From Thermococcus sp. 18S1 (GTDB lineage Archaea > Methanobacteriota_B > Thermococci > Thermococcales > Thermococcaceae): DNA of 64,000 nucleotides. The DNA lies in the NCBI RefSeq assembly GCF_012027645.1, contig NZ_SNUU01000001.1, forward strand, positions 496,001 through 560,000, read 5' to 3'. The notes beneath the pieces are model-generated. The model was not told the origin of the DNA and did not search any database. It was given only the letters and a program-made list of their open reading frames with translations. Each line of letters starts with the position of its first letter. The first letter of the stretch is position 1. The position numbers and the translations under genes are program-made. Shown here in pieces: positions 25,201 to 29,910 of the stretch.

Positions 25201-25270
25201 GTGGGTTCACCGAGGTGGATATAATTGCCAGGGGTTTTAAGGCATTTCCATTTTCAGATTCCCATCCGTG

Positions 25271-26773
25271 TTACTTAAGAAGCCCCACAAGGTTGACTTC
25301 AAAGGATTCACTATTCAAAGGTAGCAAATTCACGTAGAACACATTTCCATCATCCTCGGGCTTGATTATGGGTATTTTGAGCATCTCAATTCTACCAGGA
25401 TAAATTAACATGCCCTCCATAGATGCCCCCTCAAAATAATCAAAATCTCCCAAGTCGAGGACATAGCCCAGAACTTTATACAATGATTCCAACGGTGGAA
25501 GACGTCCATTCTTGTCAATTCTAAACTTCACATCCCCCAACAAGACCTTCTTAGGCTTATCTTCTCCCTTCTTAGAGACCAAAATCACTAGATCTGGCTT
25601 AATGGACATTCTATTAACATAGCCAACAAGCTTCATCAAACTTCCCATGTAGAGAGAGTCCGTTTCAGGGTTAAATTTCAACTCCCAAACAATAGTTACT
25701 ACTAAGTCGTCTCTTTCTAATGCAAATACTGCCTTAGTTCTTCTATTGAAGTATTCCTGATCATTTAGAATTATACCTTCATCTGAAAGCCTGAAGCCCT
25801 GCTCCATGAGCCCCTTAATAATCCTCCAAACAGCCCATGTCTCATAAATTGTGGCAAAGTTTAGTAAAGGATACTGAATGCCATCTTCAATGTTTTCAAG
25901 GATAGTTTTAGAGAACACTATCTTCACAAGTTCATTGTAAACTCTAAAGACCTCCGCATAATAGGGATTCTGCTGTGTAATGAGCCTCTCTTGTATCATT
26001 GCCAAATCCTGTGGAGCCTCACAAAAGAATTCCCATAGGTGGTAACTATCAATAAATCTCAAAGCACGATTTTGTAATGCATTAACCCGGTTTACTAAAT
26101 CAACATCAGTTATGACATGCTTTAAAAGCTCGCTCTCGATAATCACATAGTAAAAAGACTGGAACAGCATCCTATTTAATAGGGTGTCATATGTCACAGA
26201 GCGCTTGTTGAATGGATGATATGGTGAAACTAGGTCAGAATATGAGTATCTAATCCCAGAACCGAACCTCGACTGCATAGTTAGCATTTCTTTATGGATT
26301 GGCCCACGCAAAAAGAGCTTTGTACCATGTTCCTCCAGCATCTTCAGATAATGCTCAAGAGCTACAACAAGGAAGTAAACACTTCTTTCATATTCTCTTA
26401 TAACGATCTTGAACGCATGATATGTCTGTATGTCCTTGACCTCTCTCACAATAAACGAGACAAAGTTCCCGATATCATGAAGCACCGTCTTCCGGATGAA
26501 CTCCTTCCCCTCCTCAGGACTATACTCCTGAGGGAACAGTTTATGGGGAATTACAACGAAACTACGAGTCTCGTGGGGTTTTTCTATTGTCAGTGTTCCA
26601 AACAAGTCCCTGAGTGAGATTGTAACTGTCCCGTTAACGATTTTAACTTTATTAGATTTGCTAAACTCTCTCAAAGGCTTTCCGTTGATCTTCACTACGT
26701 CCAGCAACTTTAATGGGATATTATAATCAGTGTCCCAGATAGGACGCGGATCATTCAAACGCTCTGAAGGCAT
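25271..26773 (-). CDS. McrC-like nuclease subunit (DUF2357 + PD-(D/E)xK)
   Basis: A 500-residue protein that fits the McrC/DUF2357 group. Residues 1-300 are a mixed region typical of the McrC stalk; the C-terminal 180 residues contain a PD-(D/E)xK nuclease core with Pro393-Asp394 (KPDLVIL) and Asp414-Val-Lys416 (GDVKF), plus a preceding Glu364-Leu-Lys (VWELKF) and a later helix with Lys433. It would cut DNA when driven by the McrB-like GTPase encoded just upstream. The start lies inside the mcrB 3' end (23-bp overlap) with GAGGTT 6 nt before the ATG. Codons are A/T-rich compared with flanking genes, suggesting horizontal transfer. Confidence 0.82.
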   Translation of the reverse strand: MPSERLNDPRPIWDTDYNIPLKLLDVVKINGKPLREFSKSNKVKIVNGTVTISLRDLFGTLTIEKPHETRSFVVIPHKLFPQEYSPEEGKEFIRKTVLHDIGNFVSFIVREVKDIQTYHAFKIVIREYERSVYFLVVALEHYLKMLEEHGTKLFLRGPIHKEMLTMQSRFGSGIRYSYSDLVSPYHPFNKRSVTYDTLLNRMLFQSFYYVIIESELLKHVITDVDLVNRVNALQNRALRFIDSYHLWEFFCEAPQDLAMIQERLITQQNPYYAEVFRVYNELVKIVFSKTILENIEDGIQYPLLNFATIYETWAVWRIIKGLMEQGFRLSDEGIILNDQEYFNRRTKAVFALERDDLVVTIVWELKFNPETDSLYMGSLMKLVGYVNRMSIKPDLVILVSKKGEDKPKKVLLGDVKFRIDKNGRLPPLESLYKVLGYVLDLGDFDYFEGASMEGMLIYPGRIEMLKIPIIKPEDDGNVFYVNLLPLNSESFEVNLVGLLK

Positions 26774-28364
26774 GATTCAACCTCTCCAAGGCTTTTTGAG
26801 CCCGATACAACTTATACCTCTCAAGCACTCTAGAGACTTCCCGGAATCCAATATCATTTTCAAAGAATGGCAGAAGGATACTGATTACAGATTCTTCTAT
26901 GGCCTCTTCAGGTTTCTCGAAATTATCTGAGAACAGTATTAAGTCCTTTAGTATCCCGATACCAAGCTCTTTTATCTCGTTGATCTCTGAAAATATTGAA
27001 AATAAGGTCCAGGCAACACCATATCTCTCTTCATTCGATGCATTGTACTCAATTAGGGTCAGGAATCGGTTGAAGTTTTGTTTCAAGTATTCAATTATCT
27101 CCTCAGTTGTTGTTATCTCTATGAATCTAAACCTCCTTCTAAGCGCATCTCCAAGTTTAAACAGAAATGTCTTGTCATAGATATTCAGAGTCCCTATAAT
27201 CCTGAAAAACTCCAAGACATCCCTCAGTTCGTCTTCGCTAAGAGCAATGTCACTCTCTGCCTGAAGAATATGCATTATAGTTCTTACATCTTGTATTCTA
27301 TGCTCTTTCTCAAGATACGTAAAGAAAATGCCAAGTGCGGTGTCAATTTGAGTCCTGTTAATCTCATCTAAAATCAAAACTTTCTTCCCTATTAGAGCGT
27401 TTATCAAGTATCTTGGTTCTTTTTTATAATACAGAATCCCCTCATTATTTGTTTGGGGAGTTATCCTTGCCACTAGATCAAAGAAATCTGTACCGCTGTG
27501 AACAGTATATAACAGATATCCATTTCCACCATGTCTCTTGGAGTATTCAGCCGCTAGTATTTTTGCTAAGATCGTTTTTCCACTACCCGGCGGGCCATAG
27601 AGTATAACATTCTTACCTCTTTCAAGTTCGTTAAGTGCAACAGTCAGTTCCCGATGATAGAGTACCGATATGAAGTCTGGAAAAGATTTAGCGTTCTCAC
27701 TGGCAATTGCCTCTTCTGTTTCCCCCACATCATCTAAGTCGCCCAAGGGAACAAATAGCACTCGTATCTTTTCAAGAATACTCTCAACACGTGAGATGTC
27801 CTGTATTGGCTTAACACTACCCGGGCCAAAGTTCTCCTGGATAATGTCCCGTTCATCCAAGAGTGAAAGCGATTCCAATATCCTCCTAACAGTAACTCCA
27901 TCTTTCTGAGAATACGCCTTTGCTAGTGACTCGGTAATCTTAGGCTCAATCATTTTGAGATTTTCAAAAACCTCTTCACTTAGTGCGATGACTTTAATTT
28001 GAAGACGATATGGCCATAATCCTGTTCCTTCAAGTTCAGCCGGCCAGTATTTTGTGGTATCTTTAAGCTTCTTGGAAACTATACCTATCCCAAATATTCC
28101 ACTAATCTCCTTTTTGTCCCGGGTTTTCTTATTGGTTCTTAAAAGAATCACATCTCCAACCTTAATGCCGTTATAGTACTTCTCCTTATCCAACCCCCAC
28201 ACGATATACTTCTTGTTGGTTTCATACACTCTTGCAACGTTATGAAAATAGTCAACAAGACTCCATCTCCAGTGAAGTTTAGTGCCTTGTAAAACATATA
28301 CACCACGAGCATTGCTCCGAATGTCTTTCTTAAGAATTTCCATAGATTCTATTTTATCCGTCAT
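26751..28364 (-). CDS. McrB-like AAA+ GTPase with N-terminal EVE/YTH-like domain
   Basis: The motor and reader subunit of a modification-dependent restriction system. Residues about 20-125 look like an EVE/PUA-type modified-base reader (KYIVWGLDK, KVGDVILLRTNKK, FGIGIVSKK, YWPAEL). A linker follows, then an AAA+ domain: Walker A GPPGSGKT (257-264), Walker B LILDEINR (330-337), the McrB-type sensor segment LNIYDKTF (393-400) and arginines in RRRFRF (409-414). The N-terminal domain of McrB from Thermococcus gammatolerans is known to be YTH-like and to bind N6-methyladenine DNA; this protein has the same layout. The gene overlaps mazG by 11 bp and the nuclease gene by 23 bp. The ribosome binding site is weak, fitting translational coupling. 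Confidence 0.85.
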   Translation of the reverse strand: MTDKIESMEILKKDIRSNARGVYVLQGTKLHWRWSLVDYFHNVARVYETNKKYIVWGLDKEKYYNGIKVGDVILLRTNKKTRDKKEISGIFGIGIVSKKLKDTTKYWPAELEGTGLWPYRLQIKVIALSEEVFENLKMIEPKITESLAKAYSQKDGVTVRRILESLSLLDERDIIQENFGPGSVKPIQDISRVESILEKIRVLFVPLGDLDDVGETEEAIASENAKSFPDFISVLYHRELTVALNELERGKNVILYGPPGSGKTILAKILAAEYSKRHGGNGYLLYTVHSGTDFFDLVARITPQTNNEGILYYKKEPRYLINALIGKKVLILDEINRTQIDTALGIFFTYLEKEHRIQDVRTIMHILQAESDIALSEDELRDVLEFFRIIGTLNIYDKTFLFKLGDALRRRFRFIEITTTEEIIEYLKQNFNRFLTLIEYNASNEERYGVAWTLFSIFSEINEIKELGIGILKDLILFSDNFEKPEEAIEESVISILLPFFENDIGFREVSRVLERYKLYRAQKALERLNHAFRAFE

Positions 28365-28722
28365 GTCCCATCAACTCCGTATACTTCACATATTTACCTT
28401 TTACGGCGTCTATTGGATACTTCTTCTCATTCATCTTGAGCTTATCTAAAATAGCAGTTTCAAGTTCAATACCCAGTTCATTTGCCAGTAAGAACAAGTA
28501 TATAGCAACATCGGCAAGTTCTTCCTCAACTTCTTTTCTCTTAGCAGGGTTTTGGATAAGTTCCATGATTTCATGATCCTCTTGCCACTGGAAATGTTCA
28601 AGTAACTCCCCAAGTTCCACTACAAGGGATATGGCTAGATTCCGTGGAGTATGATATTTTTTCCAGTCTCTATCATCCCTGAATCTAACTATCATTGAGG
28701 TCAATTCCTGTATAGTCTTCAT
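28354..28722 (-). CDS. MazG-like nucleoside triphosphate pyrophosphohydrolase
   Basis: A 122-residue all-alpha NTP pyrophosphatase of the MazG/RS21-C6 kind. The metal-binding signature is split between ELGELLEHFQW and EVEEELADVAIYLF (EExxE...ExxD type). Such enzymes hydrolyse NTPs or dNTPs, including modified ones, and are common in phage-defence loci and phages. It is the first gene of the AT-rich operon: TATA-like ATGCATAAAAATTT about 35 bp upstream and GGAGATC before the ATG at 28722. It overlaps the McrB-like gene by 11 bp. Confidence 0.85.
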   Translation of the reverse strand: MKTIQELTSMIVRFRDDRDWKKYHTPRNLAISLVVELGELLEHFQWQEDHEIMELIQNPAKRKEVEEELADVAIYLFLLANELGIELETAILDKLKMNEKKYPIDAVKGKYVKYTELMGHDG

Positions 28723-28873
28723 GATTGATCTCCAAGAAAGTGTGTTACTGTAGAAATTTTTATGCATATCGGTTTTGATTCAGTCCACCCAGACGCCAAT
28801 TAACAAAGCCAAACGAACTCGAATTCAAGCCCCTAGAGTTAACCGAGCCCCACTTAAAAGTTAAAGAAAGAAC

Positions 28874-29242: not shown

Positions 29243-29490
29243 TTAATACACCCCCATCTGCCCCGTTAAATCCAGGTACTACATTTTATCCAGGGTATTA
29301 AGCTGACGGGCAGAAGAGAGTGGAGATTTCTAAATTTATAAATTTTTCGTGTAAGTTTATTGTCTTAGTAGAATAAAAATTTATTACCATAACACAAATT
29401 AATATGATCCTCCTCCACTAGCCGGGCAATATGGTTTAATATCGAAACAAATAGCACATGATTAAGTTCGACATCCACATCCAAGAAAGA

Positions 29491-29511
29491 TTCACCAAAA
29501 GTTCGTAGCTC
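29491..29511 (+). repeat. Dispersed repeat, copy 1 (CAAAAGTTCGTAGCTC element)
   Basis: Twenty-one bases identical to 31867-31887. A 14-base core also occurs inverted at 32102-32115. This copy stands alone in the gap between DUF302 and tRNA-His. Confidence 0.8.
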
Positions 29512-29806
29512 TCCTTAAATTTGAACATGCGCGAGTACAATCAGTCTTTTGAACTGTTTCACACTTATTCTGGCGTTTGGAGGGCGCCTTGAGAGAGCGA
29601 AACGCTATAGAGTGGCCAATTGGGAAGTAAACCCACCTAAGAATCAAGCACGTCAGAATTACACGCCATCTTTCCCTCAAAGTTGAACCCCGAGAAAGTC
29701 CCCCTTAAAGTTGCCATTAAGAGTGCATCCAACCAAAAAACGACCATTGAATTCAGAGATTGTTACTACAAAAGAACCCCCTGGATAAGAATCACGAAAT
29801 CGGATC

Positions 29807-29828
29807 AAACTTTGCACAGGCAAAGTTT
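29807..29828. repeat. Inverted repeat next to tRNA-His
   Basis: AAACTTTGC (29807-29815), loop ACAG, GCAAAGTTT (29820-29828). Nearly the same unit occurs at 31784-31804 and 32121-32140. It lies just outside the tRNA-His 3' end, on the downstream side of that gene. Confidence 0.8.
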
Positions 29829-29832
29829 CTTA

Positions 29833-29910
29833 TGGGGCCAGGGCCGGGATTTGAACCCGGGCTAGGGGATCCACAGTCCCCTGTGCTAACCAGGCTACAC
29901 CACCCTGGCC
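29833..29910 (-). tRNA. tRNA-His (GTG anticodon)
   Basis: On the minus strand an encoded G(-1) precedes GCCAGGG, which pairs with CCCTGGC; position 73 is C and the CCA end is encoded. G(-1):C73 is the histidine identity pair. The anticodon stem GGGGA/TCCCC carries loop CTGTGGA with anticodon GTG. The T arm is CCGGG-TTCAAAT-CCCGG. There is no intron. Confidence 0.96.

Follow-up and report, generated by a model that had tools for sequence, protein, structure and literature searches.

A 3.6-kb A+T-rich island in the genome of Thermococcus sp. 18S1 carries three genes, mazG, mcrB and mcrC, which encode a MazG-like pyrophosphohydrolase, an McrB-type AAA+ motor with an N-terminal reader domain and a PD-(D/E)xK nuclease. 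The operon lies in a 64,000-nucleotide stretch of contig NZ_SNUU01000001.1 (the window, to which all coordinates of the operon refer) of a 1.99-Mb genome (G000). We interpret it as an acquired Type IV restriction system of McrBC-like type with a dedicated nucleotide-pool enzyme, in which MazG serves as the immunity partner of the nuclease; we give this interpretation an even chance of being correct. The linkage of MazG with a reader and a nuclease recurs in other Thermococcales, in phages and on plasmids.

All three genes are on the minus strand, in the order mazG (28354..28722, 122 residues), mcrB (26751..28364, 537 residues) and mcrC (25271..26773, 500 residues). As given in the initial annotation, mazG and mcrB overlap by 11 bp, and mcrB and mcrC by 23 bp. 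The mazG start codon, the ATG at 28722, is supported by a Shine-Dalgarno-like GGAG seven bases upstream (28730..28733, minus strand) and by the start of the homologue in another Thermococcales genome, G021; an in-frame ATG further upstream, at 28767, is not conserved.

The island (25249..28834, G+C content 39–40%) contains only these three genes and is an exact insert between cobO and a DUF302 gene. Homology to genome G041 stops at 25248 on the left, and homology to G034 and G014 begins at 28835 on the right. In G041 the site is empty, with cobO adjoining the DUF302 gene and no operon between them. The G+C content of the three genes is 38.5–40.0% (39–45% at third codon positions), compared with 56–61% (75–85%) for the flanking genes. 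They rank as the lowest three among the 66 open reading frames of at least 100 residues within the window (mean 56.4%, standard deviation 5.0). The G021 operon is equally A+T-rich and occupies a different chromosomal place. Given the low G+C content, the sharp borders, the empty site in G041 and the different location of the G021 copy, the island is a horizontal acquisition. This agrees with the initial annotation, which had proposed a foreign island at this position and had named uniform composition as evidence against recent acquisition. A search of the island ends for flanking repeats or an integrase found neither; a tRNA-His gene is located about 1 kb away (29833–29909).

The mazG product belongs to the MazG-like family PF12643 (E=2e-19), and its closest structures in the PDB are DCTPP1 (6sqw, E=3e-24) and RS21-C6 (2oie/2oig, 7e-19). 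The catalytic residues of the ExxE...ExxD motif (E36, E39, E68 and D71) and the Trp and His residues of the cytosine pocket (W20, H24 and W46) are invariant across 13 aligned sequences. The protein is thus predicted to be an all-α deoxycytidine triphosphate (dCTP) pyrophosphatase of the DCTPP1 type. The human and mouse enzymes hydrolyze dCTP and C5-modified dCTP (PMC4491611, PMC7162842). DCTPP1 favors 5-methyl-dCTP over dCTP (Michaelis constants 85 vs 152 µM; PMC4491611), and when DCTPP1 is knocked down, 5-methyl-dCTP increases 2.8-fold and DNA methylation across the genome roughly threefold (PMC4491611, PMC7162842). Housekeeping MazG paralogues are present in nearly every Thermococcales genome. 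The MazGs of five Thermococcales operons (see below) form a single clade (93/83), separate from 28 of these housekeeping paralogues. The window MazG ends in GKYVKYTEL, and among Thermococcales MazGs the KYTEL tail is found only in the five operon copies and in none of the 28 housekeeping ones. Human DCTPP1 carries a KYT[ED]L tail at its C-terminus as well.

McrB consists of a reader and a motor. The AAA+ motor (AAA_5, E=6e-15), residues 240–537 (26754..27647, minus strand), is the part common to G021, with 81% identity, and its PDB matches include the McrB of T. gammatolerans (TgMcrB; 6ut3, E=5e-15) and E. coli McrB (6hz4, 8e-9). The recognizable motifs are GPPGSGKT at 257, LILDEINR at 330, GTLNIYDK at 391 and ALRRRF at 407; all four, which comprise the Walker A motif, the DEINR Walker B motif and the NxxD signature, are present in both the window and the G021 proteins. 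The signature GTLNIYDK departs from the MNTADR of relatives that work with a PF10117-type McrC, so the preference of the window McrB for GTP is uncertain.

The core of the reader, residues 47–141 (27942..28226, minus strand), appears to be EVE-like by three profile comparisons. It matches PH1033 (1wmm) with E=2.9e-4 when the query combines the window reader with A4, NCBIfam PRK00809 over residues 49–141 with 2e-8, which is below the cut-off of that model, and a Thermococcales PF01878 set in HHalign (probability 88.6%, E=2.6e-6). The curated Pfam EVE model PF01878 itself has no match on the N-terminus of McrB. The initial annotation had described the domain as EVE/YTH-like; the EVE half of that description holds at the profile level, and the domain seems closer to EVE (PH1033) than to the YTH-like domain of TgMcrB. 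The EVE domain of VcaM4I binds 5-methylcytosine and 5-hydroxymethylcytosine (PMC7897488), while the TgMcrB-type reader is reported to bind DNA with N6-methyladenine (PMC7641849). Because of its closer relation to EVE, the two modified cytosines are the better guess for the target of the window reader. N6-methyladenine, suggested by TgMcrB, was set aside for the same reason.

McrC, encoded directly 3' of mcrB, matches PDDEXK_7 (PF04411, E=3e-5). Its PD-(D/E)xK core (residues 308–422; 25508..25852, minus strand) keeps the PD...DVK motif, with PD at 393–394 and D414-V-K416. The PD-(D/E)xK assignment of the initial annotation therefore stands, as a nuclease of the PF04411 type, while Pfam, searched to an E value of 1, gave no match for the DUF2357 assigned together with it. 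The canonical McrC family, PF10117, has no match anywhere in the window genome, and an HHalign comparison of the window McrC with PF10117-type McrC from loci L071–L073 gave a probability of 0.3%. Lacking a PF10117 McrC, the system is named McrBC-like rather than canonical McrBC. With this qualification, the proposed architecture of MazG, an EVE/YTH-type McrB and an McrC nuclease is supported. A further McrBC-like system was observed on an archaeal provirus, the Archaeoglobus profundus pleomorphic provirus (L115, BK065154.1, 4380–8516), where reader-AAA, PD-(D/E)XK and DUF4268 proteins are encoded in a row. Its reader is related to that of G021; its nuclease (gp02) has no significant BLAST match to the window McrC (HHalign probability 0.3%).

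Among 94 Thermococcales genomes, the mazG-mcrB-mcrC trio is found in five, the window genome, G021, G041, G009 and G007, with genes that overlap or nearly overlap in every case. Close relatives of the window McrC occur only in G021, where the identities to the window are 75% for mazG, 81% for the mcrB motor and 79% for mcrC. The N-terminus of the G021 McrB is unrelated to that of the window and matches the TgMcrB reader (6p0f, E=0.006) when the query also contains the Archaeoglobus provirus protein as a second sequence. The trios of G041, G009 and G007, which were found through the MazG family search, have readers of the window type (34–37% identity) combined with larger motors and a PF10117 McrC (E 1e-58 to 1e-65). 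The reader (EVE or TgMcrB type) and the motor/nuclease (PF04411 or PF10117) have thus been exchanged by recombination, with mazG as the fixed element. Four of the 94 genomes have a reader of the EVE type, and mazG is adjacent in all four. Scans of genomes and viral contigs with the window McrB, McrC and EVE reader returned no relatives outside Thermococcales; the genome scans also missed known Thermococcales copies and may omit near records, and this result is not evidence of absence.

The same pairing is found outside Thermococcales. A search with the G021-type reader identified 12 IMG/VR contigs, in all of which the reader forms the N-terminus of a protein of ∼330 residues that ends in an HNH nuclease. 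MazG is encoded directly 5' of this reader-HNH protein in 10 of the 12 loci; an eleventh has a remnant of MazG, and the contig of the twelfth ends at that point. Some contigs carry the locus near terminase genes, and we therefore regard them as phages or prophages. A model of one phage reader-HNH protein has a predicted local distance difference test score (pLDDT) of about 90 over residues 1–180, and the modeled reader matches the folds of the TgMcrB N-terminal domain (E=8e-7), VcaM4I (fold match 3) and PH1033. A second viral search, with MazG only, returned 38 loci, with reader-HNH as the next gene in 34, 17 of which belong to one near-identical lineage. The neighbor is an MrcB_N-HNH protein in L183 and a PUA-like-NOV_C protein in L211, and the last two loci have neither. 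Dereplication at 70% identity leaves 11 lineages with reader-HNH, 2 with another reader-nuclease and 2 with neither (13 of 15 positive), a proportion to be read with the ascertainment of the query in mind, as most of the MazGs in it had first been encountered next to readers, the MazG of a Priestia plasmid being added to these. The window EVE profile also matches some of the phage readers from these loci, with E about 1e-5. Plasmids show comparable arrangements: mazG directly precedes reader-HNH on a Peribacillus plasmid, which also has two cytosine methyltransferase genes, and mutT, MrcB_N-HNH and mazG occur together, with a 4-bp overlap, on the Priestia plasmid. The initial annotation had staked its idea of a combined system on the conservation of MazG adjacency in other genomes, and this conservation is evident in four further Thermococcales as well as in phages and plasmids.

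Several additional features were observed around these MazG genes. A divergent second HNH nuclease of ∼215 residues is encoded ∼100–150 bp 5' of the phage mazG-reader-HNH locus (L199, 2194–2844), and at the same position in L196, L198–L200, L202–L204, L206 and L209, so that each of these prophages has a pair of adjacent candidate restriction nucleases. Another possible recurring pair is MazG with a Schlafen group 3 helicase, whose gene comes next after mazG in L166 (3995–6237) and L162 (3983–6237), on a haloarchaeal (Halalkalicoccus) and a Priestia plasmid. The phage of L117 contains a second, distant MazG-family gene (1165–1491, E=4e-6) with no reader adjacent, which provides an internal contrast.

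In the scheme that we favor, the EVE-like reader would recognize a modified base, for which a cytosine modified at C5 is the most plausible candidate, upon which the AAA+ ring would translocate DNA and drive the PD-(D/E)xK McrC to cut. MazG would hydrolyze modified dCTP, for example 5-methyl- or 5-hydroxymethyl-dCTP, to the monophosphate. A modified base, for example one salvaged from degraded viral DNA, would thereby be kept out of the host chromosome, and self-cutting would be prevented. The location of a putative modified-cytosine reader beside a putative modified-dCTP remover suggests that one base is met at two levels, triggering cutting when in DNA and being destroyed when in the pool. 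We infer here the base that is read, the substrate of MazG and its protective role; MazG would remove modified dCTP, most likely to protect host DNA from self-cutting. As these systems have no methyltransferase to mark self, host self-protection is the simplest benefit. The suggestion in the initial annotation that MazG alters nucleotide pools is retained in this scheme, but is better understood as a DCTPP1-like enzyme cleaning up the pool.

A number of observations weigh against this scheme. The MazG pocket residues are common to housekeeping MazGs, and so the substrate specificity cannot be read from the sequence. A single-sequence AlphaFold model of the window N-terminus is unusable (pLDDT 35). 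Some relatives of the reader, in haloarchaeal reader-HNH proteins, have lost mazG, which is therefore dispensable. A PF12643 MazG is near only 3 of the 45 PF10117 McrC matches in the order, indicating that most McrBC systems work without MazG; we rejected the notion of MazG as general McrBC equipment on this count. The main tension comes from G021, which pairs a dCTP-type MazG with a TgMcrB-type reader, a poorer fit: either the specificity of that reader differs or the substrate range of MazG is broader.

The chief rival to host protection is an offensive role, in which MazG would destroy the modified deoxynucleoside triphosphates (dNTPs) made by viruses with modified genomes before these replicate, leaving a virus to face ordinary restriction if unmodified and McrBC if modified. 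Such viruses exist, as T4-type phages make their modified dNTPs before incorporation. The evidence from linkage and enzyme family applies equally to this role, and MazG is among the predicted, unvalidated defense domains of DefensePredictor (PMC13092281). However, MazG would have to be expressed strongly enough to keep ahead of synthesis by the virus, this analysis identified no virus of hyperthermophilic archaea whose DNA is fully modified, and an offensive role offers no particular reason for MazG to reside beside nucleases that cut modified, rather than unmodified, DNA. Overall, we regard it as somewhat unlikely. MazG could also drain dCTP upon infection as a second, abortive effector, similar to the dCTP deaminase and dGTPase defenses. 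This appears improbable, even though dCTP is a substrate of its family (PMC7162842): MazG has no sensor or regulatory domain, and a poor toxin would be expected from a housekeeping fold that is constitutive and thermodynamically ordinary and has near-universal paralogues in Thermococcales.

The translational coupling of the genes would also be expected if MazG were a regulator that binds McrB or its reader, as an antitoxin or assembly factor with incidental catalysis, and the KYTEL tail of the reader-linked MazGs, missing from the housekeeping ones, could be the docking site. We attach little probability to such a role, since the catalytic residues are invariant, the tail is shared with human DCTPP1 and so is not operon-specific, and the same MazG family is found with three or four types of reader and with motors and nucleases that are unrelated, with no evident common binding surface. 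Finally, mazG might be a passenger whose position next to mcrBC is fortuitous or reflects the general cargo of defense islands, as could be argued from MazGs of the same clade without a reader neighbor on Paenibacillus, Enterococcus and Hymenobacter replicons. That is very hard to reconcile with a linkage that outlasts exchange of the reader, motor, nuclease and chromosomal site and spans two domains of life, with genes that overlap or are a few bases apart, and we consider it highly improbable.

No methyltransferase accompanies Type IV restriction enzymes, and the question of how the host avoids damage when modified bases enter its own DNA would find a direct answer in a dedicated enzyme for clearing modified dNTPs, if host protection is indeed the role of MazG. 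A function would then also be assigned to a group of MazGs that has until now been listed only as a predicted defense domain (PMC13092281). A broader proposal, which we advance tentatively and at somewhat less than even probability, is that this is one member of an undescribed general class, in which all reader-nucleases, irrespective of the kind of reader or cutter, are paired with a DCTPP1-type immunity hydrolase that prevents the modified base they target from persisting among the dNTPs. Discrimination between self and non-self would then be set at the nucleotide pool, not by a methyltransferase. Such a class would have members in archaea, bacteria, plasmids and phages, with EVE, YTH-like, MrcB_N and PUA-like readers and, as cutters, McrBC of two types, HNH nucleases of two types and NOV_C. 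The operon family also offers a natural experiment in modular design, where readers and cutters are swapped and the nucleotide enzyme is retained, and the retained MazG could be used as a marker to find more such systems.

The region between the DUF302 gene and tRNA-His (29243–29832 of the window) is also A+T-rich, contains no convincing gene and is mostly conserved in G034. The site on the DUF302 side is occupied by other large genes in G034 (L171, 2937–9938; 1275 and 683 residues) and in G014 (L172, 1549–10291; 1225 and 1304 residues), in the latter together with a standalone PH1033-like EVE protein. The cobO/DUF302/tRNA-His region may be a defense hotspot.

The component parts of the system are known, while their conserved pairing and its implication appear to be new. 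Searches of the open-access literature found no report of MazG with McrBC, EVE or modification-dependent nucleases, although a subscription paper could contain one. EVE-McrB fusions occur in nearly 300 genera (Bell et al. 2020, PMC7641849) and share the fusion of EVE to McrB with the window system; MazG is nowhere mentioned in that study, which does describe a comparable link to a nucleotide hydrolase, the MutT pyrophosphohydrolases that adjoin SauUSI homologues. The EVE-HNH endonucleases VcaM4I, TspA15I and CmeDI (PMC7897488) resemble the phage and plasmid partners in joining a reader to an HNH nuclease. However, that paper covers neither MazG nor a neighborhood or operon, and the phage readers found here are nearer to the TgMcrB domain. 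CoCoNuTs (PMC11090510) are likewise Type IV systems related to McrBC, and they contain YTH-like domains. They differ in being RNA-directed coiled-coil nuclease tandems that are nearly absent in archaea, with MazG unmentioned, and none of their features (coiled-coil, HEPN, Hsp70 or SmpB-like) was detected in the three window proteins in a Pfam search that admitted E values as high as 1. DCTPP1/RS21-C6, to which the window MazG is most similar among PDB entries, has the same catalytic residues and KYT[ED]L tail, but is a cellular housekeeping enzyme with no nuclease linkage. The McrBC of T. gammatolerans (6ut3, 6ut5, 6p0f, 6p0g) provides the closest solved motor, with an AAA+ McrB, a PUA-superfamily reader and the Walker A, DEINR and NxxD motifs, and its N-terminal domain matches the reader of G021. 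The window system differs from it in having a reader nearer to EVE, the signature GTLNIYDK in place of GTMNTADR, a PF04411 nuclease and an added mazG.

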